In this document: positions 203-24,987 of the stretch, in pieces | Layout: each line of letters starts with the position of its first letter | Position numbering within the stretch: position 1 is the stretch's first letter | From: Parvibaculaceae bacterium Mf 1.05b.01 | GTDB taxonomy: Bacteria; Pseudomonadota; Alphaproteobacteria; Parvibaculales; Parvibaculaceae | DNA length: 64,000 nucleotides | Assembly (NCBI GenBank): GCA_000509225.1 | Contig: BAOK01000002.1 | Location: 748,496 to 812,495 of the forward strand | Direction: 5' to 3' | Notes under the pieces: generated by a model | Seen by the model: the letters and a program-made list of their open reading frames with translations, nothing else | Told to the model about the DNA's origin: nothing | Database searches by the model: none | Made by a program: the position numbers and the translations under genes

Positions 203-1144
203 ATGGCACCGCTTACATCTTCCGGCGCTCGCGTCGTCGATCCCATCCTGACACAGGCCGCGCGTGGGTACACTCATGCAGAGCGTGTGGCGCAACTGCT
301 GTTTCCACGGGTCTCTGTACCGATGCGCGGGTTCAAGCGCATTGAGTTCGGGAAAGAAGGTTTCCGACGCTACAACACCAGGCGTGCGCCAGGCGCTGCC
401 ACCAAAGAGATCGTCTTTGGATATGAAGGCAAGTCCGCCGATCTCAGTCAATACGCGCTTGATGCGCTGGTGCCGCGCGAACATGTGCAAGAGGCTGAGG
501 CTGGTCCGGGCATCAATCTGCAGATGGAGGCCGTCCGGGTCGTCCAAGATGTCATGTCGTTGGATGAAGAAGTGCAGGCCGCGCAACTTGCGACCAATGC
601 AGCGAACTATGCAATCGGCAATAAGGAAACACTCTCAGGTGCAGATCAGTGGGATGACCCGACAGCTGATACCAAGACACAAATCAATGATGCGAAGGAA
701 GCGGTGCGCAAGCGCATTGGCCGCGACCCGAACACCATTGTTATCACCGCGCCTCAGTTCCGGGCGTTGGATAACAACACGGCTATCCTCGAAAAGACCA
801 AGTACACATCAAGCGACAGTATCACGGAAGAACTGCTCGCACGCTACTGGGGTTTTGACAAAGTTGGTGTTGCCCGGTCGGTCTATTCCGAAAGCGACGC
901 AGGCGACTTTGTGGATGTCTGGGGTGACGCAGCTGTCATGGCCTATGTGCCTCAGGGTGAACAGCAGAGCGCACGTGTTCCCTCCTATGGCTACACCTAT
1001 CAGCTTGCCAATCATCCATTCGTTGAAGAGATGGCTTGGGAACGGGGACGCAAGAGCTGGGTTGCCGGTGTCACCGATGAACGCTCACCCGAACTGGTCG
1101 GCGCGGAAGCTGGCTTCCTCTTTAGCGACGTTCTTGCGGGCTAA
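203..1144 (+). CDS. Phage major capsid protein (HK97-fold, E-like)
   Basis: A 313-aa protein that should form the icosahedral shell of the virion. The N-terminal part (VDPILTQAARGYTHAERVAQ, then a segment on 'GFKRIEFGKEGF') and the C-terminal core with 'NTIVITAPQFRALDNN', 'LLARYWGFDKVGVARSVY' and 'VWGDAAVMAYVPQ' match the layout of E-type capsid proteins, where the central domain names a peptide or nucleation point and the end carries the hydrophobic A-domain strands. CAGGAGA about ten bases upstream of ATG 203 sets the start. It follows the decoration protein and precedes small head proteins, the usual head-module order. No separate scaffold or protease is visible here. Confidence 0.8.
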   Translation: MAPLTSSGARVVDPILTQAARGYTHAERVAQLLFPRVSVPMRGFKRIEFGKEGFRRYNTRRAPGAATKEIVFGYEGKSADLSQYALDALVPREHVQEAEAGPGINLQMEAVRVVQDVMSLDEEVQAAQLATNAANYAIGNKETLSGADQWDDPTADTKTQINDAKEAVRKRIGRDPNTIVITAPQFRALDNNTAILEKTKYTSSDSITEELLARYWGFDKVGVARSVYSESDAGDFVDVWGDAAVMAYVPQGEQQSARVPSYGYTYQLANHPFVEEMAWERGRKSWVAGVTDERSPELVGAEAGFLFSDVLAG

Positions 1145-3620: not shown

Positions 3621-4562
3621 ATGGACTTCATCAAAAAAGACAAGGTCGTGATCCTCATTGATACGGAGGTCACGTATGGCACAGATGTGGTGCCGGTCGG
3701 CGCTAACGCCATTCTGACGCGCGACTTTACGCTCAATCCGATTGAAGGGAGCGAAGTCCAACGGCAGCTGGACCGCCAGGGCATGGGAGCGAGCCCCTCG
3801 CTCTTTGCTGGGAAGCACATCACCTGTTCGTTTAAGGTTGAGGCAGCCCCATCGGGCACGGTGGCTGTCCCGCCTGCGTTCTCCCATGTGCTCACTGCCG
3901 CTCAGATGAGCGAGACGATCACACCGATCTCGGGTCCGGTTGACTATGCGTTTGTGTCGTCTGCCTTTGATAGCGCAACGCTTTACGCAAATCTCGACGG
4001 CATCCTTTACCGTCTTCTCGGCCTTCGTGGTGCGATGGGCATTGAGTTTGAAGGGGGTGGGGTTCCTTATTTTTCATTCAACGGGATGGCTCTGCTGACC
4101 CTGCCAAGTGATACGCCCGCACCTGCAGGTGTCGACTATTCTGCTTTCGAGAACCCGGAACTTGCCGAGGATGACAACACACAAGAAATCCAGCTGAACT
4201 CAGTTGATCTTGTGTTGCGTAGCTTTAGCGCCAATGCACCGGGCAATGTCAATTTCCGCAATCTGCCGGGACAGAAAGAAGTTGTGGTGGCAGGTGACCG
4301 CAACTACCGGTCGCGTCTTGAAGTGATGATGCCGACATTGGCGACGTTTAATCCGGTGGCATTGAAGGACGCGGAGACACTCGTTCCCTTCTCGCTGCTC
4401 CATGGTACGGGCGCTGGGTCGCAATGGCACCTGACATCGCCCAGTGTGCAAGTGGTCGGCGTCACCCAAGGGGAGCATCAAGGCGAACGGACTTGGCAGC
4501 TTGATCTGTTGCACACCGAAAGTGCAGCCGGTGACGATGAGATGCTGCTGAGCTTCCTCTAA
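3621..4562 (+). CDS. Phage major tail tube protein
   Basis: A 313-aa, beta-rich protein. The beginning 'FIKKDKVVILIDTEVTYGTDVVPV' and 'ILTRDFTLNPIEGSEVQRQL' is the pattern of long siphophage tail tube subunits, in which E-x-T-Y-G-x-D starts the tube domain and the ring interface follows. No gene for a contractile sheath is nearby, so the virion should have a flexible non-contractile tail. The gene precedes the frameshifted chaperone and the tape measure, the universal order. AGGAGC ahead of ATG 3621 supports the start. The C-terminal third ('WHLTSPSVQVVGVTQGEHQG') may be an extra outward domain. Confidence 0.75.
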   Translation: MDFIKKDKVVILIDTEVTYGTDVVPVGANAILTRDFTLNPIEGSEVQRQLDRQGMGASPSLFAGKHITCSFKVEAAPSGTVAVPPAFSHVLTAAQMSETITPISGPVDYAFVSSAFDSATLYANLDGILYRLLGLRGAMGIEFEGGGVPYFSFNGMALLTLPSDTPAPAGVDYSAFENPELAEDDNTQEIQLNSVDLVLRSFSANAPGNVNFRNLPGQKEVVVAGDRNYRSRLEVMMPTLATFNPVALKDAETLVPFSLLHGTGAGSQWHLTSPSVQVVGVTQGEHQGERTWQLDLLHTESAAGDDEMLLSFL

Positions 4563-4616: not shown

Positions 4617-4997
4617 ATGTCGAAAGGCCTCAAGTTTGTGATGCGTGATCCGAAGAAGGATCACATTGTTCAATGGCAAGTGAAGTGGCAGATGCCCGAC
4701 GCAGACGGCGAGCTGGTTGAGGTTGGCTTCAAGGGGCATTTCAAGATCCTGCCATCTGATGAAGTGGAAGCACTTTTTGGTGGTGGCGTCTTTGGACGGT
4801 TCGCCAACAATGCCAAAAACCGCGAAGGTCTGGAGAAGGTGTTGGTCAATTGGTCTGGCGTGATGGACCCTGACGGCGGTGGAGAAGCACCCTTCAGCGA
4901 TGAGCGCTTAAAGCAGGTGCTCAACTATGAAGATGCGGTGACAGCCTGCATTCGCGCCTACATCGACTGCCTCCAGGGGCACCACGAAAAAAACTGA
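4617..4997 (+). CDS. Tail assembly chaperone, short (G) product
   Basis: A 126-aa protein translated from ATG 4617 (GGAGAGAG just upstream) to TGA 4995-4997. Its N-terminal beta domain ('HIVQWQVKWQMPDADGELVEVGFKGHFKIL') and helical end ('DAVTACIRAYIDCLQGHHEKN') fit phage tail assembly chaperones, which coat the tape measure during tail tube growth and are absent from the finished virion. The last three sense codons GAA AAA AAC include a canonical -1 slippery heptamer, so part of the ribosomes should continue into the downstream frame to make the longer G-T form. Position between tail tube and tape measure confirms the role. Confidence 0.85.
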   Translation: MSKGLKFVMRDPKKDHIVQWQVKWQMPDADGELVEVGFKGHFKILPSDEVEALFGGGVFGRFANNAKNREGLEKVLVNWSGVMDPDGGGEAPFSDERLKQVLNYEDAVTACIRAYIDCLQGHHEKN

Positions 4998-5057
4998 AGG
5001 AGGCCGCGCGTGCGATTGCTCTCGGCAAGTCAGAGAGAGAAGGCGACACGCGGGGCC
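4988..5057 (+). promoter_or_regulatory. Programmed -1 ribosomal frameshift site with stimulatory stem
   Basis: The heptamer A AAA AAC (4988-4994) stands in the right phase directly before the stop codon of the chaperone gene. After a 7-base spacer, GGCCGCGCGTG (5002-5012) can pair with CACGCGGGGCC (5047-5057): 10 of 11 pairs, one G-G mismatch, with a small inner stem CTCTC (5019-5023)/GAGAG (5033-5037). Slippery site, spacing and stem are all as expected for -1 frameshifting in phage tail chaperone genes. AAGGAGG at 4997-5003 is an additional Shine-Dalgarno-like element that may also slow the ribosome. Confidence 0.8.
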
Positions 5058-5443
5058 GCTTCGGCGCTGATGTGGCTGAGCAGTTGGTCGCGTTTGGCGC
5101 ACCAGCGCATATTGTTGCCCTGGCCTCAGAGAAACCCGCTCCTTCATCTTCGGGGGAGGATGTTGGGGTGGGCGAAGAGGGAGAGAACGTCTTCGTTGTC
5201 GAGGCCGCTAACCAGGACGCGCTCTCTCTCTTCATCCACTCAGAAACTCAATGGCGCTATGTCTCACTTACCACGCTTGAACGCGCGGAGCTTATCCGTA
5301 CGGGGCTGGACTATGCGGCGGTGGAAGCAGCCGCTCATGGGCTGGGCCTCGAATGGTCGGAGGGGCTTGTCAGCGGCATTCGCACAATGGAGCGGGAAAC
5401 ACTCAAGATTGAAGCTGAGCAACGCCGCACGCGGGGCAGGTGA
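4994..5443 (+). CDS. Tail assembly chaperone, frameshifted (T) extension
   Basis: Read in the -1 phase from 4994, the frame is open for 149 residues up to TGA 5441-5443, just before the tape measure. It has no ATG until 5072 and no ribosome site there, while protein-like sequence ('LKEAARAIALGKSEREGDT') extends upstream to the slippery site, so it is best read as the C-terminal part of a G-T fusion of about 275 aa. The late part is helical ('LERAELIRTGLDYAAVEAAA', 'RTMERETLKIEAEQRR'), as in other T domains, which bind the tail tube subunit. Some gene callers may start it at 5072. Confidence 0.75.
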   Translation: MKEAARAIALGKSEREGDTRGRFGADVAEQLVAFGAPAHIVALASEKPAPSSSGEDVGVGEEGENVFVVEAANQDALSLFIHSETQWRYVSLTTLERAELIRTGLDYAAVEAAAHGLGLEWSEGLVSGIRTMERETLKIEAEQRRTRGR

Positions 5444-5446
5444 GCC

Positions 5447-8400
5447 ATGAGTGAAAAGATTGTCAGCGTTCGCCTCACCGCTGATGGCAGGGGCCTGGAA
5501 GCCGTTGTTGATAAGAGCACGCGGAAACTCAAGGGTCTGGGTGGAGAGACACAGAAAACAAGCGACAATCTTAGAGAAGGCGCGCGCGAAGCACAGGGCT
5601 TCGGTCGTGGGATGGGATCGGCTTCCTTGGAAGCAACGGCTATGCGTGCCGCTTTGCGATTGGTGGGACCTGCTGTCGTTGCGATGGGATTGAAGAAAGC
5701 TGCTGATGACGCGCGGTCGTTTTCCGCTGCAATGGCGGAGGTTACAACGCTTGCCGATTTTGCACACCGCGACATCGGCTCCCTTGCAGATCAAGTAAGG
5801 GAACTGGCTGTCCAGTTTAACCAGGCGCCAGAAGCCGAAGCAAAAGCGCTTTATGACATCATCTCTGCTGGTGCCAAGAGTTCCGAAGAAGCAATCACCC
5901 TTCTCACCCAGGCGAACAAACTCGCTGTAGGTGGTGTAACCAGTGTGTCGGTTGCGGCCGACGGTCTGACGTCTGTGTTGAATGCTTATGGTGACGCGGC
6001 CGGTGGTGCCGAGAATGTGTCAGACGCCATGTTTGTCACGATGCGGTCAGGGAAGACCACCATTGCTGATCTATCGGGTGAGATTGGTAAGGTTGCGCCA
6101 TTGGCTTCCTCTACTGGTGTGGAGCTGGAGGCACTGCTTGCTGCGGTAGCGGCACTGACCAAGGGCGGCATCGAGACAAATGTCGCGATCACGGGGTTGC
6201 GGGCAATTTTGGCAGCTGTGGCAAAGCCGTCAGCTGAGGCAGCAGATCTGGCGTCGGAGCTGGGGCTTGAGTTTTCCACCGCTGCTCTGCGGTCGAAAGG
6301 GTTTGTCGAGTTTCTGGACGACTTGGTTGAGAGGACAGGCGGCGCTGATGAACACCTTGCGGTCCTGTTCGGTGGGGTTGAAGCCCTCGTGCCGATCTTA
6401 GCACTAGCGGGGAATGCTGGTGCCGACTTCGCCCAGATAATGGAGTTGATGGCCGAAAAAATTGGCGAAACGGAGAAGTCGGTTTCGAAGATTGCCGGAG
6501 AAGACGGTTTCAAAATCGAGCAACTTTTCCGACGCTTGGCGGATGAGGCGCTGGGCGCAGGTGAGGCGATCAACCAAGGCCTGGCACCCGCCGCCGAAAC
6601 CGTCTTTGAGAATTTCGATGACATCAAAGAGATCGGTCTCGACGTCATTCAGATCATGGGCATCATGGCGACCACGGCAGGGGCTGCGGCCGGGTTCCAG
6701 CTTCTGGCGTCTACCATAAGCCCCGCCATCATTGGACTGCGCATGATGTCGAGTGTCAGCGGAGTGGCGACTGCTCAGCTGTTGGCCCAATCAGCCGCAA
6801 CGGGGGCGCTGGCTGTTGCACAGCGGGCTCTGCTCTTGAGCGGTGGACCTCTCGGCGTGGCGATCATCGCAGCTGGCAGCGCCTATGTGCTCTTTGGTGA
6901 TGCGGTGAGTGCCGCTCAGGCGGCCACCGACAGAATGAGAACGTCAACAGAAAAGCTGACGCGGGAAATCGCAGACGGGATGATCGTCACCCGGAACGCT
7001 GCCGCTGAGAAATTGCGTGTTGCCCAGGCGAACCAGGCGCTTGCGAAGTCGAACCTGGAGCTGCTGGATACTGAACTCGCCCTCAAGGAAGCGCAACAGA
7101 CCGGCGCGTTGGGCGGTCAGCGCTCCGACGCGCTTGACGCGCAGATTTCACGATTGAAGGCACAGCGGGACACGCTGCTGCTTGATATGGATAACACGGC
7201 GGCCAACATCTCGGCGCTTGAAGCCCGCCTGAAAGAGCTGGCTGCTGCTCAAGCCGCTGCCAATGACAATGGGTCGTCAGGTGGGTCTGGCGGAGCAGGT
7301 GGTGGTGTCACGGGTGATCTGGCCGCTGAGCTGGAAGCCGTCCTGAAAGCAGCTGACCCCATCGGGGCTGCTCTCAATGATTATGCTGCTGCGGCGGCGT
7401 TGCTGGATCAGGGCCTCACGTCAGGTCTCATTCCTTCAACGGCAGAACATGCCCGGTTGCAAGAAGGGCTTGATGCGGCGCTCGCTAAGACCTTGGCCAA
7501 GACGCCAGCAGCAAAGATTGAGGAATGGGCGCGGGCGCAGACGAACCTTACCGCCAAGACGCTGGCTCTCAAGGTTGCTGAACAACAGCGGCTGCAGGCG
7601 CGTGAAGAAGGTTCCTTGCTTCTCGACGCTGAAATTGAGGCGATGGCTGAAGAGGTGCGGCTCGCGCGCCTCTCAGAAGAACAGCGCCAGGTCGAGATTA
7701 AGACGCGGGAGATCCTCAACCGGGCGAAGCAAGAAGGCGTCTCGATTTCAGAAGCGGAGGCCCGCGCAGCTGCTGAGGCCGGTGTCGCTGCGCTCAAAGC
7801 AGCTGAAGACCAGCAACGCCACTTCAATCGTTGGCAAAGTCAATTCGAAGCTGTCGCCGCAAATTTCGAAACGGGCTTTAAGGAGGCCTTCAAGGACGCG
7901 TTTAGGGAGACAGGTGGTGGCTTTGATCGCCTGATGGAAGGTTTCGAGCAAGGCTTCCTGGACATGCTGGCTGAGATGGCGTTTCAGGCGCTGGCACGGC
8001 CCGTCATTGTGCCGGTGCTTCAACAAATCGGCACGGGCTTCTTTGGTCTGTCAGGCGGACAAGTCAATGGCGTGCTGAACCAACAAGGTCTTGGCACTCA
8101 GGGCTTGGGTTCGATCAATGGCATAGGTGGTCCGATAAACGCTGGCGGTTCAGGAGGGTTTGACCTCTCCTCGCTGAGCAATCTTTTCTCAGGTGGCGGC
8201 CTTGGCAGCCTCGGCTTCAATGCTGGCGCGGGCAACATTGGTGTTGATATTGCCCAGTTCTTTGGTGCGGGTGCAGAGAGCCAAGCCGCTTTCGGCAATG
8301 CCTTTGCACGGGGCGGGTCGCCCGCTGGTATCGCTGGCGGTTTTGCTGGGAACTTCCTGGCGAACAGCCTTCTGGGAGATCGGGGCATTGGTGCCAACAT

Positions 8401-10726
8401 CGGCGGCAGTATTGGTGCTATCGCCGGATCGTTTATTCCAATCCCCTTCGTCGGTACGGCACTCGGCGCGTTTGCGGGCAACGCCATTGGAGGTCTGTTC
8501 GGCAATAACAAGCCTTCAGTTGGTGAAGTGATCGGCGCACGCTTTGGATCAGATGGCGGCGTCTTGGCAACGGGCACCGACAATGGCGGCAGCGGCTCGG
8601 CTGCGCAGGATTTTGGATCGCAGATCTCCAACATTCTGGGGCGCATTCTCGATGTCACAGGCGCGGCCATTGAAAACGAGTTCGTCATTGAGCAGAGCCA
8701 GCGCAATGGGCTGATGGTCAACCGGTTGGGCGGCCGCGGACATCAGACCTTTGGTGAGGATCTGGTTGCTGCTTTGCAGTTTGCGCTCGAAGGCAATACG
8801 TCCGGCGGCGACCCTGTGTTTCAGAACTTGTTCGCAACAGCAAATGTCGGCAGCGTGGAGGAGCTTGTCGCTCTCCTGGAGAGTGCCGAACAATTCAAGG
8901 AAACCTTGGAAGGGCTCACCGCCGCCAATGACAATCTGACGACTAGCGAACAAGCGATTAAGACCCTCACCGAGCAGATGGAAGCGCTGCGCGAACAAGC
9001 CGTCGCCTTTGGGTTCTCGGTAGCGCAAATCGATGCGGCGGAGGCCATTGCTCAAGACCGGCTGGCGGAAGATTTCAATGAGGGGATCAGCACGGCACTC
9101 CTAAATGCGCTTGATCCGGTGCGCGCTTCAGCTGTTGCCATGATTGAGCAACAAGAGGCCCGTGTGCGTGACACGTTGGCGCTAGGTGGAGATCTGGCAG
9201 CGGTTGAAAAACTGCACCTGTTGCAGCGTCGAGACTTCCTGCGCCAGCTTACTGAAGAGCAACGCGACGGCATCTCAGACCTTATTGATCTAACAGATGA
9301 CTTTGGGGCGTCTCTGGCGGTGGTGGAGCAAGGATTGGCGTCTGCGATCGCTGAGCAGCTGAACGCCTCCAATCAACTGGCCCGTGCCTACATTTCTCAA
9401 GCCAATAATCTACGCCGCGCAGCAGAGGGCCTCAGCGAGACGCGGGTGGACCTTCGCTTCTCTGAGAATTCCACGCTCACACCATTACAGCAGCTGACAG
9501 AAGCGCGCGCTATTGTTGATCAGCTTAAAGTGGACGCCCTTGCCGGAGACGAAGAGGCGCTGGCAGACCTGCCCGATGCGGTGAAACGCTTCATTGAGGC
9601 GAGTGCGGCTTTCAATGCCGACAACGCAGCCTATCAGTCTGACTTTGAAGAGATGCAGGCATTGCTTGCTGACGCAGCGCTCATTGCCACCGACACAGCC
9701 GATAGTGCAGAGACACAAATTGACCTGTTGGCAGAGCAGTCAGACCTGCTCAACGACATTCTGGCCGCTCTATCGTCACCCTCGCCTGATGCAGATCTGC
9801 TGCGCACCCAGCTCACCGAATTGTCAGCGCTCAACTCTCAGCTCGACGCGCCTTTGATGTTTGAAGGCTTTGACACATTCCTGGACGGGCAGACGCGCAC
9901 CGAGGATCTGCTCGGCCAGCTGGTGAGCTTGGCCCAGACGGACCTTAATGCCGAGATAGGCTCCCAGGCAGACACGCTGGCAGCAGAACGCATTGCCGCC
10001 ATTGAAACAGCATCTGCCAAAGCCATTGCGGATGCGCAGGCCGCCGCGCAATCGGAGATCGATGCGGCGATTGCCCGAGCGACGGCAGCGGAGCAAGCTG
10101 CCAGCCAGGCCGACGCCGACGTGAGAGCGCGGTATGAGGAAGGTGTCGCCTCAGCCCTTTCAGTTTCTCAATTTGCTGTTGGCAGAAATGCTGGACGTTT
10201 CACGGCCGACTTCAGGGATGGGATCAGCGCGTTGGAAGCGCAACAGGCTTTGGGTCAGAGTTCCGAAGCCCGCATTCTCGCGTTTCTCAATCCCGAGCGA
10301 CTGCTCGCAATGGCCAATGATGGGAACGCCAGCGCCGGAATTGAGCACTTCCTTCGTGGCCTTGGTGTGCCGGGCTTTGCCCAAGGCGGGCATATCAGGG
10401 GACCAGGCAGCCCGACCTCTGACAGCATTCCAATCATGGCGAGTGACAATGAGTTCATGATCCAGGCGTCGGCTGTTGATCATTTTGGGGTGGATTTCTT
10501 CAACAGCCTCAATCGAGGTGTTGATCCCACAGGTAATGATGCAGCCATTGTTGGCGCGATTGGTCGCCTTGAAGGTCAGCTGGCGAACGTCACCAATGCT
10601 GTGGCGGCCATAGGCGGTGACATTGTTGAGGCGGTGGGTGAAGGGACGGAGGTCAGCGAGCAGTTGGCCCGCGATCTCAACCGCAACACCCGGCTTGCGA
10701 CACGCCAACGGGGGGCGGCGGCATGA
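5447..10726 (+). CDS. Phage tail tape measure protein (TP901-type)
   Basis: At 1759 aa this is the largest gene. Residues about 85-330 contain the TP901 tape-measure core: 'EAKALYDIISAGAKSSEEA', 'LAVGGVTSVSVAADGLTSVL', 'FVTMRSGKTTIADLSGEIG'. Hydrophobic membrane-like segments (about 400-480 and a Gly-rich stretch near 920-1010, 'GGSIGAIAGSFIPIPFVG') may enter the host membrane during DNA delivery; long coiled coils lie between. The end carries 'FAQGGHIRGPGSPTSDSIPI' and 'SDNEFMIQASAV', the usual C-terminal motif of siphophage tape measures. The protein sets tail length. It follows the chaperone by three bases and overlaps the next gene by ATGA. Confidence 0.95.
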   Translation: MSEKIVSVRLTADGRGLEAVVDKSTRKLKGLGGETQKTSDNLREGAREAQGFGRGMGSASLEATAMRAALRLVGPAVVAMGLKKAADDARSFSAAMAEVTTLADFAHRDIGSLADQVRELAVQFNQAPEAEAKALYDIISAGAKSSEEAITLLTQANKLAVGGVTSVSVAADGLTSVLNAYGDAAGGAENVSDAMFVTMRSGKTTIADLSGEIGKVAPLASSTGVELEALLAAVAALTKGGIETNVAITGLRAILAAVAKPSAEAADLASELGLEFSTAALRSKGFVEFLDDLVERTGGADEHLAVLFGGVEALVPILALAGNAGADFAQIMELMAEKIGETEKSVSKIAGEDGFKIEQLFRRLADEALGAGEAINQGLAPAAETVFENFDDIKEIGLDVIQIMGIMATTAGAAAGFQLLASTISPAIIGLRMMSSVSGVATAQLLAQSAATGALAVAQRALLLSGGPLGVAIIAAGSAYVLFGDAVSAAQAATDRMRTSTEKLTREIADGMIVTRNAAAEKLRVAQANQALAKSNLELLDTELALKEAQQTGALGGQRSDALDAQISRLKAQRDTLLLDMDNTAANISALEARLKELAAAQAAANDNGSSGGSGGAGGGVTGDLAAELEAVLKAADPIGAALNDYAAAAALLDQGLTSGLIPSTAEHARLQEGLDAALAKTLAKTPAAKIEEWARAQTNLTAKTLALKVAEQQRLQAREEGSLLLDAEIEAMAEEVRLARLSEEQRQVEIKTREILNRAKQEGVSISEAEARAAAEAGVAALKAAEDQQRHFNRWQSQFEAVAANFETGFKEAFKDAFRETGGGFDRLMEGFEQGFLDMLAEMAFQALARPVIVPVLQQIGTGFFGLSGGQVNGVLNQQGLGTQGLGSINGIGGPINAGGSGGFDLSSLSNLFSGGGLGSLGFNAGAGNIGVDIAQFFGAGAESQAAFGNAFARGGSPAGIAGGFAGNFLANSLLGDRGIGANIGGSIGAIAGSFIPIPFVGTALGAFAGNAIGGLFGNNKPSVGEVIGARFGSDGGVLATGTDNGGSGSAAQDFGSQISNILGRILDVTGAAIENEFVIEQSQRNGLMVNRLGGRGHQTFGEDLVAALQFALEGNTSGGDPVFQNLFATANVGSVEELVALLESAEQFKETLEGLTAANDNLTTSEQAIKTLTEQMEALREQAVAFGFSVAQIDAAEAIAQDRLAEDFNEGISTALLNALDPVRASAVAMIEQQEARVRDTLALGGDLAAVEKLHLLQRRDFLRQLTEEQRDGISDLIDLTDDFGASLAVVEQGLASAIAEQLNASNQLARAYISQANNLRRAAEGLSETRVDLRFSENSTLTPLQQLTEARAIVDQLKVDALAGDEEALADLPDAVKRFIEASAAFNADNAAYQSDFEEMQALLADAALIATDTADSAETQIDLLAEQSDLLNDILAALSSPSPDADLLRTQLTELSALNSQLDAPLMFEGFDTFLDGQTRTEDLLGQLVSLAQTDLNAEIGSQADTLAAERIAAIETASAKAIADAQAAAQSEIDAAIARATAAEQAASQADADVRARYEEGVASALSVSQFAVGRNAGRFTADFRDGISALEAQQALGQSSEARILAFLNPERLLAMANDGNASAGIEHFLRGLGVPGFAQGGHIRGPGSPTSDSIPIMASDNEFMIQASAVDHFGVDFFNSLNRGVDPTGNDAAIVGAIGRLEGQLANVTNAVAAIGGDIVEAVGEGTEVSEQLARDLNRNTRLATRQRGAAA

Positions 10727-14671: not shown

Positions 14672-15214
14672 ATGTCTTGGGACACCTATCTGACAGCAGC
14701 AATTCTTGAAGCACACCCAGGCGCACGACCCGGCTTTGAGTTTACCTGGTCAATGACGGATACAGGCCCTGAAATGCTGGGCTGGGATGAAGCATTTTTT
14801 GGCGGACTCTTTGTCCTGGACGATTGGGAAGCAGCCTGTGTGGCCACCGCGAAGGCCACTGCGGTGACGCGGATCAACGGCCTTCATGAAGCGGTACTAT
14901 GCCGCCTGACGGACGATGCCACAAAAGCGGAACGCGACACGTGGGGCGCAAAAGCTGCTGCCGTGGAAGCTCACGCGGCCAGTACACCTAACGCCGCACA
15001 GACGGCGCTGCTCGAAGGGGAAGCGCTTGCAATGGGAGAGACCGTACAGGCGCAGGTTGACCGCATCGCTGCAAAGTCGCTGGCCTATCATCAAATCGTT
15101 GGTGTGACGTCAGGACACCGCCGCAAGGCCATCGCTGATCTGGAAGCCACGACAACAGTCGAACAGATGGAAGGCATCGTGAGCGCGCTCGGTGCCGTGT
15201 ATGACGCGCTCTAA
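14672..15214 (+). CDS. Fibre-associated protein (DUF4376-like), possible fibre assembly factor
   Basis: A 180-aa protein. The N-terminal part is short and acidic-aromatic ('FEFTWSMTDTGPEMLGWDEA'); the C-terminal half is helical, with 'TPNAAQTALLEGEALAMGET' and 'GVTSGHRRKAIADLEATTT', which resembles the DUF4376 helical region found after tail-fibre genes. It may be a chaperone or minor part of the fibre. GGAGATAAGCC stands directly before ATG 14672. Its TAA stop interlocks with the stop of the opposing membrane-protein gene by four bases, which marks the end of the late operon. Confidence 0.55.
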   Translation: MSWDTYLTAAILEAHPGARPGFEFTWSMTDTGPEMLGWDEAFFGGLFVLDDWEAACVATAKATAVTRINGLHEAVLCRLTDDATKAERDTWGAKAAAVEAHAASTPNAAQTALLEGEALAMGETVQAQVDRIAAKSLAYHQIVGVTSGHRRKAIADLEATTTVEQMEGIVSALGAVYDAL

Positions 15215-18778: not shown

Positions 18779-18855
18779 TGGTGACCCCGGGTGGATTCGA
18801 ACCACCGACCCTCAGATTAGGAATCTGATGCTCTATCCTGCTGAGCTACGGGGCC
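18779..18855 (-). tRNA. tRNA-Arg (anticodon CCT)
   Basis: The minus strand folds into a complete cloverleaf: acceptor GGCCCCG/CGGGGTC (one G-U), D arm 'AGCTCAGCAGGATAGAGC', anticodon stem TCAGA/TCTGA with 7-base loop TTCCTAA (anticodon CCT, reading AGG), T arm with GGTTCGAATCC, discriminator A and an encoded CCA (18781-18779). The 3' end points left, towards the prophage. Tyrosine integrases often use the 3' half of a tRNA gene, and the integrated DNA restores it, so this is the probable right attachment site. Confidence 0.95.
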
Positions 18856-23449: not shown

Positions 23450-24580
23450 TTAGGCTTCTCCAGCCGCCTCTGCGGCAGCTTCCGCTTCGGCTTCCGCCTT
23501 TTTCTCTGCCTTGCCAGCTGCCGTTACCAGAACGGTCTCAAGCCGGCCGATGGCGGCGGTATCATCCATATTGTCAGCAGCGGCAACTTCGCGGGCCATT
23601 CTATCAATGGCGGCCTCAAAAAGCTGGCGTTCTGAGTAGGATTGTTCCGGCTGTTTGTCGGAACGGAAGAGATCGCGAACAACCTCGGCGATCGAGATCA
23701 GATCACCGGAGTTGATCTTTGCTTCATACTCCTGCGCCCGCCTGCTCCACATGGTGCGCTTCACCTTCGCTTTACCCTTTAGGGTATCGATTGCCTGGGT
23801 GATGACCTTTGGCTCAGACAGTTTCCGCATGCCGACGGCTTCTGATTTGTTTGTCGGAACCCGCAGGGTCATTTTGTCTTTTGCGAAGGTGATCACGTAC
23901 AGCTCTAGCTCGTGACCTGCCACTTCCTGACGTTCAACGGATGTGATCTGACCGACACCGTGTGAGGGATAGACGACGAATTCCTTGTTCTTAAAGTCCA
24001 GTTTGCTCGGCCTTGGGTCTGGCGTTGCTGTGACCTTTGGTTCTGCCTTGGGAATAGGGCGGATCGACGCCGGTTCTGGAATGTCGACTTTCGCAGGGCG
24101 TGCGATGATCGGTGTTGTCCTCGGGACTTTTTTCTCAGGAATGATGTCGAGCTTTGCAGCTTTTTTTGACGTGGCCTTCTTGGCGGCGGTTTTTTTTGTT
24201 GCTGCTTTTGGAGCAGCCTTTTTGGCTCCGGGCTTTTTCGGCGCGGCTTTTTTTGCCGTGGCCTTCTTGGCTGCGGTTTTCTTTGCTGCTGCTTTAGGGG
24301 CGGCCTTCTTGGCAGCCGGTTTTTTCGGCGCTGCCTTTTTGGTTGCTGCTTTCTTTGTCGCCGTCTTTTTGGCCGCTGGCTTAGCAGCCGTCTTTTTTGC
24401 TGCAGCTTTCGGTTTTGCCTTGGTTTTTGCCTTGGCTTTCGCCGGGGCCTTTTTTGCCGCTGTTTTCTTTGCCGCGGCTTTTACCTTGGTTTTGGCTTTT
24501 GGTTTTGCCTTGGCCTTTGCGGCGGCTTTTGTCGCCTTCTTTGCGCTGGTCTTCGTTTTTTTAGTGGCCTTGGCTGCCAT
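23450..24580 (-). CDS. carD: CarD-family transcriptional regulator with histone-H1-like N-terminal tail
   Basis: A 376-aa protein. Residues about 195-350 are a CarD/CdnL-type domain: an RNA-polymerase-interacting fold ('KNKEFVVYPSHGVGQITSVE', 'LELYVITFAKDKMTLRVPTN') and a helical DNA-contact part ('MWSRRAQEYEAKINSGDLIS', 'ERQLFEAAIDRMAREVAAAD'). CarD stabilises the open promoter complex, mostly at rRNA and housekeeping promoters. Residues about 1-150 are an extreme Lys-Ala-Pro repeat ('AAPKKPAAKKAAPKAAAKKT') as in histone H1-like and AlgP-type proteins, which should bind DNA non-specifically; usual alphaproteobacterial CarD proteins are about half this size. GGAG six bases ahead of ATG 24580 sets the start. 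Confidence 0.85.
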   Translation of the reverse strand: MAAKATKKTKTSAKKATKAAAKAKAKPKAKTKVKAAAKKTAAKKAPAKAKAKTKAKPKAAAKKTAAKPAAKKTATKKAATKKAAPKKPAAKKAAPKAAAKKTAAKKATAKKAAPKKPGAKKAAPKAATKKTAAKKATSKKAAKLDIIPEKKVPRTTPIIARPAKVDIPEPASIRPIPKAEPKVTATPDPRPSKLDFKNKEFVVYPSHGVGQITSVERQEVAGHELELYVITFAKDKMTLRVPTNKSEAVGMRKLSEPKVITQAIDTLKGKAKVKRTMWSRRAQEYEAKINSGDLISIAEVVRDLFRSDKQPEQSYSERQLFEAAIDRMAREVAAADNMDDTAAIGRLETVLVTAAGKAEKKAEAEAEAAAEAAGEA

Positions 24581-24987
24581 GATCGCTCCATCTGCTTGCT
24601 GGTCTTGCCAGCATGTGGTTTTAGGCTTTGGGGCGTTGGGTGGATCAAACAGACCAGAAGCGCGGTTCAATTTGTCCGCCACCTTTTGTCCAATTTATCC
24701 GTATGCGTGAAGAGACCGCCAGATGTTGCCCCATTATCGTCAGGAGGCTAGATCGGCTTTTCTTCGGATCCCCTATCTCATCTCCAGGTTTGACCCAGAA
24801 AAGGACCCACGTTGACGGACCGCCTGTTTCCAAGCCTTGCCGCCCAAATTGGTGCCCAAATGTCCCGGTCATCCCTTAACCGGGGCCTAGTTGAATTGCT
24901 TTGGCGAGAGCATATCACAAAAATCGCCTGAAATAAAGATCGGGCGGGGAAAGCTCAGCAAAATCAGACGCATAGAGTGGGGTGAGG
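24581..24987. other. Non-coding gap between carD and fdxA
   Basis: About 400 bases without a convincing gene. It must contain the carD promoter on the minus strand and the 3' end of the fdxA transcript. I see no clear terminator, repeat or RNA fold in it; short reading frames on both strands lack ribosome sites and family features. Confidence 0.5.

Follow-up and report, generated by a model that had tools for sequence, protein, structure and literature searches.

A conserved candidate -1 frameshift site with an abutting stop codon in the tail assembly chaperone genes of a probable Parvibaculaceae prophage

The lambda G/GT frameshift is described in passages of PMC5009743, which cites Xu et al. 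2004, and Levin 1993 also deals with it. In lambda, the tape measure is bound by the G part of the protein, and the major tail protein by its T part (PMC5009743). The locus reported here shares with lambda the order tail protein, G, T and tape measure, and a T that lies in the -1 frame and is reached via an in-phase heptamer. In contrast, the lambda heptamer is G GGA AAG and its stop comes 5 codons later, whereas A AAA AAC with an adjoining stop is present here. This likeness is one of arrangement, in gene order and heptamer. As for rates and spacing, 6-7% frameshifting was measured for two phage genes for tail chaperones resembling those of HK97 (PMC3711429), and for PRFect the mean distance to the stop is given as 26 nt for its SEA-PHAGES training data and as 36 nt for the Xu set (PMC10885494).

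Genes 49/50 of Rhodobacter phage RcapMu (JN190960) belong to the same G and T profile family as the present locus, with the same arrangement and a heptamer abutting the stop, and their GenBank record marks the gene pair as 'potential -1 frameshift'. Unlike the present locus, RcapMu has G GGA AAC instead of A AAA AAC, and its sequence is divergent. In the Smarc2 record, G and T are annotated as a frameshift join. An AAAAAAC directly beside the stop has been remarked on in gp12/gp13 of Acinetobacter phage Loki (passages of PMC5313236). It is the heptamer-stop arrangement in which Loki resembles the locus. A -1 slippery heptamer with the stop directly next to it also occurs in viral systems, which differ in that they come from eukaryotic viruses and unrelated genes. 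Rous sarcoma virus and barley yellow dwarf virus naturally have a stop at such a position; with the HIV-1 slippery sequence placed in bacteria without its stem-loop, such a stop reduced frameshifting, and more RF2 abolished the frameshifting at the stop position (excerpts of PMC4373837). The phenomenon is already known and the present site is a conserved, ordinary one of the tail-chaperone kind; its stop codon poses a testable question.

The window, i.e., the whole stretch of 64,000 nt that was analysed, sits in a 3.8-Mb genome of 2 contigs and starts within phage structural genes, which include a neck-type connector protein besides the head and tail genes of Table 1; from these structural genes at the window start, the host region is taken to be a probable prophage. 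G and T are placed between the tail tube and tape measure genes, as expected for G/GT chaperones. The G protein matches phrog_569 (E 1.8e-11), a PHROG labelled tape measure, and phrog_313 'Tail assembly chaperone' (E 0.0037). Its match to Phage_TAC_4 (PF08748), at 15.4 bits, is under the cut-off of 21.1, and a family profile of G compared with solved structures gave nothing significant. The best hit there, ribosomal protein L10 at E 0.19, was taken as chance and rejected as a structural relative. Both the sub-threshold Phage_TAC_4 match and the lack of a significant solved-structure relative count against the frameshift reading. The T part scores 30.4 bits against DUF1799 (PF08809; E 4.5e-7), above the curated cut-off of 26, and matches phrog_680 at E 2.2e-11. 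Among 40 aligned family members, 37 match DUF1799, 8 match Phage_TAC_4 at 1e-3 or better, and 13 match phrog_313, the G of the window not being among these 13 at that limit.

Table 1. Positions in the window of the putative frameshift locus, its parts and its neighbours
Feature	Position	Strand	Remarks
Major head protein	203-1144		
Tail tube protein (upstream neighbour)	3621..4562	+	Phage_tube_2 PF18906, 34.5 bits vs cut-off 27
gpG-like tail assembly chaperone (standard-decoding product)	4617..4997	+	ORF of 126 aa from ATG 4617; matches phrog_569, phrog_313, Phage_TAC_4
Slippery heptamer A AAA AAC	4988..4994	+	in phase with frame 0
T part, DUF1799	4994..5443	+	-1 frame, 149 codons + stop; PF08809, phrog_680
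Zero-frame stop TGA	4995..4997	+	abuts heptamer
AAGGAGG	4997..5003	+	overlaps hairpin start
Predicted hairpin	5002..5057	+	5002-5005/5054-5057, 5007-5012/5047-5052, 5013-5014/5044-5045, inner 5019-5023/5035-5039
Predicted gpGT fusion	4617..5443	+	frameshift at 4988-4994; inferred from parts and from aligned fusions of 12 loci
Tape measure protein (downstream neighbour)	5447..10726	+	PhageMin_Tail PF10145 E 4.9e-27; several tape-measure PHROGs

At the end of G, seven A (4987-4993) are followed by C 4994 and the TGA, and the zero frame finishes GAA AAA AAC TGA; an in-phase X XXY YYZ heptamer is found directly ahead of the zero-frame stop, just as the initial annotation had read it. After a slip, the -1 frame would run CTG AAG GAG GCC and onwards up to TGA 5441-5443. 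This frame is open from about 4931, and the first ATG, GTG or TTG in it is GTG 5072; the earlier claim of a downstream frame without a start codon is right close to the junction and fails farther on at this GTG. AAAAAAC by itself is not rare in the window, since it occurs 6 times on the + strand and 9 times on the - strand. In-phase AAAAAAC or GGGAAAC occurs at 3 of 12550 positions in the upstream part of the family coding sequences. The mismatches that separate the window from L002 (genome G008), its closest relative, concentrate in third codon positions: at positions 1/2/3 they number 25/18/57 in frame 0 before the slip site and 7/9/38 in the -1 frame after it, with zero mismatches inside the heptamer. 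Together with the alignments and the survey of 94 pairs described below, this codon-position pattern shows the -1 frame to be protein-coding and conserved from the slip site on. Compared with L002 in 60-nt bins, nucleotide identity is 57-60% in 4857-4976 and 98% in 4977-5036, a jump that points to strong constraint on the cassette or, alternatively, to a recombination joint close by.

The locus is read as a -1 programmed ribosomal frameshift site, comparable to lambda G/GT, that would yield a pair of tail assembly chaperones from a single message, with a probability of roughly 0.93 as judged from sequence. The majority of ribosomes would end at the TGA and release gpG, and a minority would slip one base back on A AAA AAC, aided by the hairpin 7 nt downstream. 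The slipped ribosomes would continue with CTG AAG GAG and make gpGT, i.e., gpG plus the DUF1799 domain. Decoding of frame 0 by both tRNAs ahead of the slip would give the junction ...EKN-LKEAAR; sites of this type could alternatively give ...EKK-LKEAAR. By analogy with lambda through gene order, binding to the tape measure would fall to the G part and binding to the major tail protein to the T part. We infer the occurrence and rate of slippage, the help of the hairpin and the protein roles. In E. coli, A_AAA_AAC is reportedly far less prone to shift than A_AAA_AAG (PMC5009743), which stands against the frameshift reading. The host tRNA genes found by ARAGORN, with the loci of 30 of 40 tRNA matches scanned, include Lys-UUU, Lys-CUU and Asn-GUU, and the second lysine tRNA could lower the slipperiness of AAG relative to AAC.

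Relatives were sought in 40 genomes of the order, in 398 of the phylum and in 385 of the class, this last set being searched first with the G protein and then with a fusion profile. Further searches covered 371 and 379 genomes from the orders of two matches, in addition to viral and genome contigs, where the first single-protein scans had given no relatives. A pair script sought G and T separately; the heptamer was not required, and T had to be open across the G stop. Because the 12 loci behind the G and T profiles all have an adjacent stop, and an overlap was required, the sample leans to frameshift pairs. The 138 survey loci (L001-L057, L089, L090 and L092-L170; at most 30 loci per whole-genome search, among the matches listed) gave 131 rows and 7 loci without a pair. 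Removal of 37 repeated junctions left 94 distinct G/T pairs, the pair of the window included, with 83 representatives under 50% identity.

In all 94 distinct pairs, T lies in the -1 frame relative to G, and all 94 carry an in-phase heptamer within the overlap. The heptamer is AAAAAAC in 60, GGGAAAC in 32, AAAAAAT in 1 and AAAAAAG in 1; where G GGA AAC replaces A AAA AAC, tandem slippage is kept. The first residue of the -1 frame is Leu in 93 of 94, and AARxWA comes next in the consensus of 40. This comparative result, -1 relation and in-phase heptamer in every related pair, is the evidence that argues strongly for the frameshift reading. Close relatives with both frames intact and no heptamer, which the initial annotation had named among the observations that would speak against it, were not encountered, whether in the two closest, L002 and L003, or in the other 91 of the 94 pairs. 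Outside the pairs, 6 of the 7 loci without a pair have a heptamer abutting the stop (L027, L032, L036, L040 and L041 by script, L106 by eye) and a weak or missing G or T match. The seventh, L167, has lost the heptamer, reading A AAG AAC TGG on the minus strand near 1415 of the reversed locus, and its T is in another frame. It counts against the frameshift reading; it is, however, probably a broken copy. Two kinds of domain variation were noted along the way. The zero-frame ORF before the slip site in L014 (1153-2139) seems by eye to carry two tandem G-like domains, and the T parts of L010 (1683-2252) and L006 (1683-2147) contain short cysteine-containing repeats, ENCLQ-like and QNTC-like, between the T start and the DUF1799-like part.

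The 7-base spacer and the stem with a nested CTCTC/GAGAG pairing, both proposed in the initial annotation, are present in the sequence. The spacer covers 4995-5001, the stem 5002-5012/5047-5057 pairs at 10 of 11 positions with a mismatch at 5006/5053, and the inner stem joins CTCTC (5019-5023) with GAGAG (5035-5039). The predicted minimum-free-energy fold has both stems, in addition to pairs 5013-5014/5044-5045 and 4995-4999/5059-5063. Compared with dinucleotide shuffles, the fold of 4998-5060 has a z of -3.42 with 0 of 200 shuffles equally good, and that of 4995-5070 a z of -2.35 with 5 of 200. Stimulatory structures of X XXY YYZ sites lie about 5-9 nt downstream, a range that includes the predicted hairpin of the window at 7 nt. 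Of the first 46 pairs, 23 have their first predicted 3-bp helix starting 5-9 nt past the heptamer; in another 22 it starts closer, and in the remaining one at 17 nt. That only 23 of 46 fall in this range counts against the frameshift reading, as do the p values of the fold under synonymous recoding: taken singly, the window beats its controls by a narrow margin (p 0.045), and p is 0.16 in L002 and 0.255 in L003.

Across the family, the fold signal is concentrated just past the slip site. In a scan of the first 46 pairs, 60-nt windows placed 0, 3 or 6 nt past the heptamer gave mean z values of -1.50 to -1.62, versus -0.66 to +0.07 at 18 other offsets from -240 to +300. With synonymous controls on all 94 pairs, the 20 codons from the third -1 codon gave a mean z of -1.33 +- 0.13 and 39 of 94 at p 0.05, versus mean z values of -0.19 to -0.36 and 8 to 16 pairs at p 0.05 in four later stretches. 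From this excess over the later stretches, a hairpin just past the slip site appears, on predicted folds, to be under selection in the family. Together with gene order, domain matches and the heptamer of all 94 pairs, this fold maximum supports the earlier claim that the tail chaperone gene contains a -1 programmed frameshift.

The window's own stem is less widely kept. L002 folds like the window (z -1.30, 24 of 200 shuffles as good, 76-nt stretch). L003 (genome G032), whose fusion protein is 50% identical to that of the window, has its own predicted hairpin in this position (z -2.23). Counted from the heptamer onwards, a single one of its first 26 letters departs from the window; the 3' side diverges, and the stem, against the frameshift reading, is not kept pair for pair. 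Covariation of stem pairs, suggested earlier as a check, was rejected as support: the consensus of the three close sequences holds 24 pairs, of which 1 is altered on both sides and 10 are disrupted or meet a gap in one of the sequences, with an unfavourable covariation term. A long-loop pseudoknot, also raised earlier, was not supported either, as a comparison of the loop with the bases down to 5200 gave one candidate of at least 6 pairs, which is 6 bp with G-U pairs. The AAGGAGG that had been listed beside the slip site is present, and its role as a working part did not hold up: it sits 3' of the slip site, a similar sequence at most 16 nt after the heptamer occurs in 7 of 94 pairs (three being the window and its two closest relatives), and it is probably merely the -1-frame codons Lys-Glu-Ala. 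A Shine-Dalgarno-like stimulator upstream was likewise discarded: the window has none, and 5 of the 94 pairs have one at most 16 nt ahead of the heptamer.

In 80 of the 94 pairs, and in 70 of the 83 representatives, the zero-frame stop comes immediately after the heptamer. In the other 14 pairs, it follows later by 1, 1, 2, 2, 3, 6, 7, 9, 10, 12, 12, 18, 25 and 32 codons; at 18, 25 and 32 codons, the heptamer named is the one nearest to the stop and is less certain. The adjacent stops are TGA in 60, TAA in 14 and TAG in 6. The stop was also adjacent in 10 of 10 named phages examined. These were chosen out of two tblastn listings with 28 records apiece, and their hosts include Rhodobacter, E. 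coli, Pseudomonas and Synechococcus; RcapMu and RcWaterboi, both in this set, hardly differ at the junction. Given the leucine codon there and ordinary codon use, adjacency would be expected in about 10%. Moreover, CTA is used at the first -1 codon for 21 of 93 Leu, versus a background of 4.6% elsewhere in T, and where the second -1 residue is Arg, AGR is used in 14 of 20, versus a background of 8.5%. These codon statistics cover all pairs, adjacent or not, because AGR in the adjacent pairs (14/14) follows from adjacency itself; as the counts come from related sequences, their p-values overstate independence. Adjacency together with the over-use of rare codons there suggests, at the level of sequence, that the stop is part of the signal.

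The reading that we lean towards, with some reserve, is that this adjacency lies outside the mechanism, only keeps gpG short and was inherited from a common ancestor, which would leave the frameshift itself unaffected. In line with it, the 14 pairs with a stop 1 to 32 codons later keep the heptamer, their fold strength (z -1.06 +- 0.34) is not clearly different from that of the 80 adjacent pairs (z -1.38 +- 0.14), and the lambda stop lies at a distance. On the other hand, all three stop codons occur beside the heptamer, and adjacency has therefore been kept through changes; the over-use of CTA and AGR at the junction also speaks against this reading. More tentatively, the stop may act as a recoding element, in which the slip would take place with the stop in the A site, and a competing release factor would set the GT:G ratio. 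The abutting stop may hold the fusion low and release-factor-dependent, or it may simply keep gpG short. Should the stop be a recoding element, a 'heptamer plus stop' element for -1 shifts, selected at the nucleotide level, would be widespread in bacteria, and tail assembly could follow the host's supply of release factor. The family, with its three stops and two main heptamers, would then offer natural variants for studying competition between release factor and slippage on bacterial ribosomes. No description of adjacency as a family-wide feature turned up in searches of the open-licence literature.

Annotation often splits or misses the T part at such loci, and the heptamer-stop arrangement, once known, would help annotators to join G and T. 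In the records of the 10 named phages, T is a separate gene with its own start in 8, HK639 has no T feature and Smarc2 has a join. The records of RcapMu, RcWaterboi and S-CBS1 begin T downstream of the G stop, which would suit an alternative in which T is made separately, either by reinitiation past the TGA helped by AAGGAGG, in itself a good Shine-Dalgarno sequence, or by a start at GTG 5072. The GTG that fits AAGGAGG, at 5010, lies in frame 0 and not in the T frame, however, and such a sequence is confined to the few pairs counted above. Since a start at 5072 would drop the conserved T start (Leu, then AARxWA) and a separate start gives no reason for an in-phase heptamer kept in every pair, this alternative is improbable.

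Slightly less probable again is transcriptional slippage, in which RNA polymerase would stutter on the A run and some messages would gain or lose one base, fusing the frames. The window does have seven consecutive A, and long A runs are a known cause, with n above 7 in An (parts of PMC3711429). No conserved run of more than 7 was found: among the 62 A-type sites, the run is 6 in 30, 7 in 31 and 8 in 1. With runs of 6-7 in 61 of the 62 sites and GGGAAAC, which has no A run, in 32 relatives, such slippage is unlikely, and the downstream fold signal suits ribosomes. A gene broken by an indel or a sequencing error that split one ORF, for which a homopolymer at the break would be typical, is scarcely credible in view of the identical -1 relation in all pairs from different genomes and viral contigs and of a script search (E limit 0.05) that found no G and T in one ORF among the survey loci.

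With the programmed ribosomal frameshift as the preferred reading of G and T, two further features of the window may be recorded. A tRNA-Arg (CCT) gene at 18779-18855 (-), ~3.5 kb past the ORF 14672-15214, is a possible integration target of the prophage. The ORF 23450-24682 (-) has a long lysine/alanine-rich repeat region, and its C-terminal part presumably resembles CarD-type regulators.
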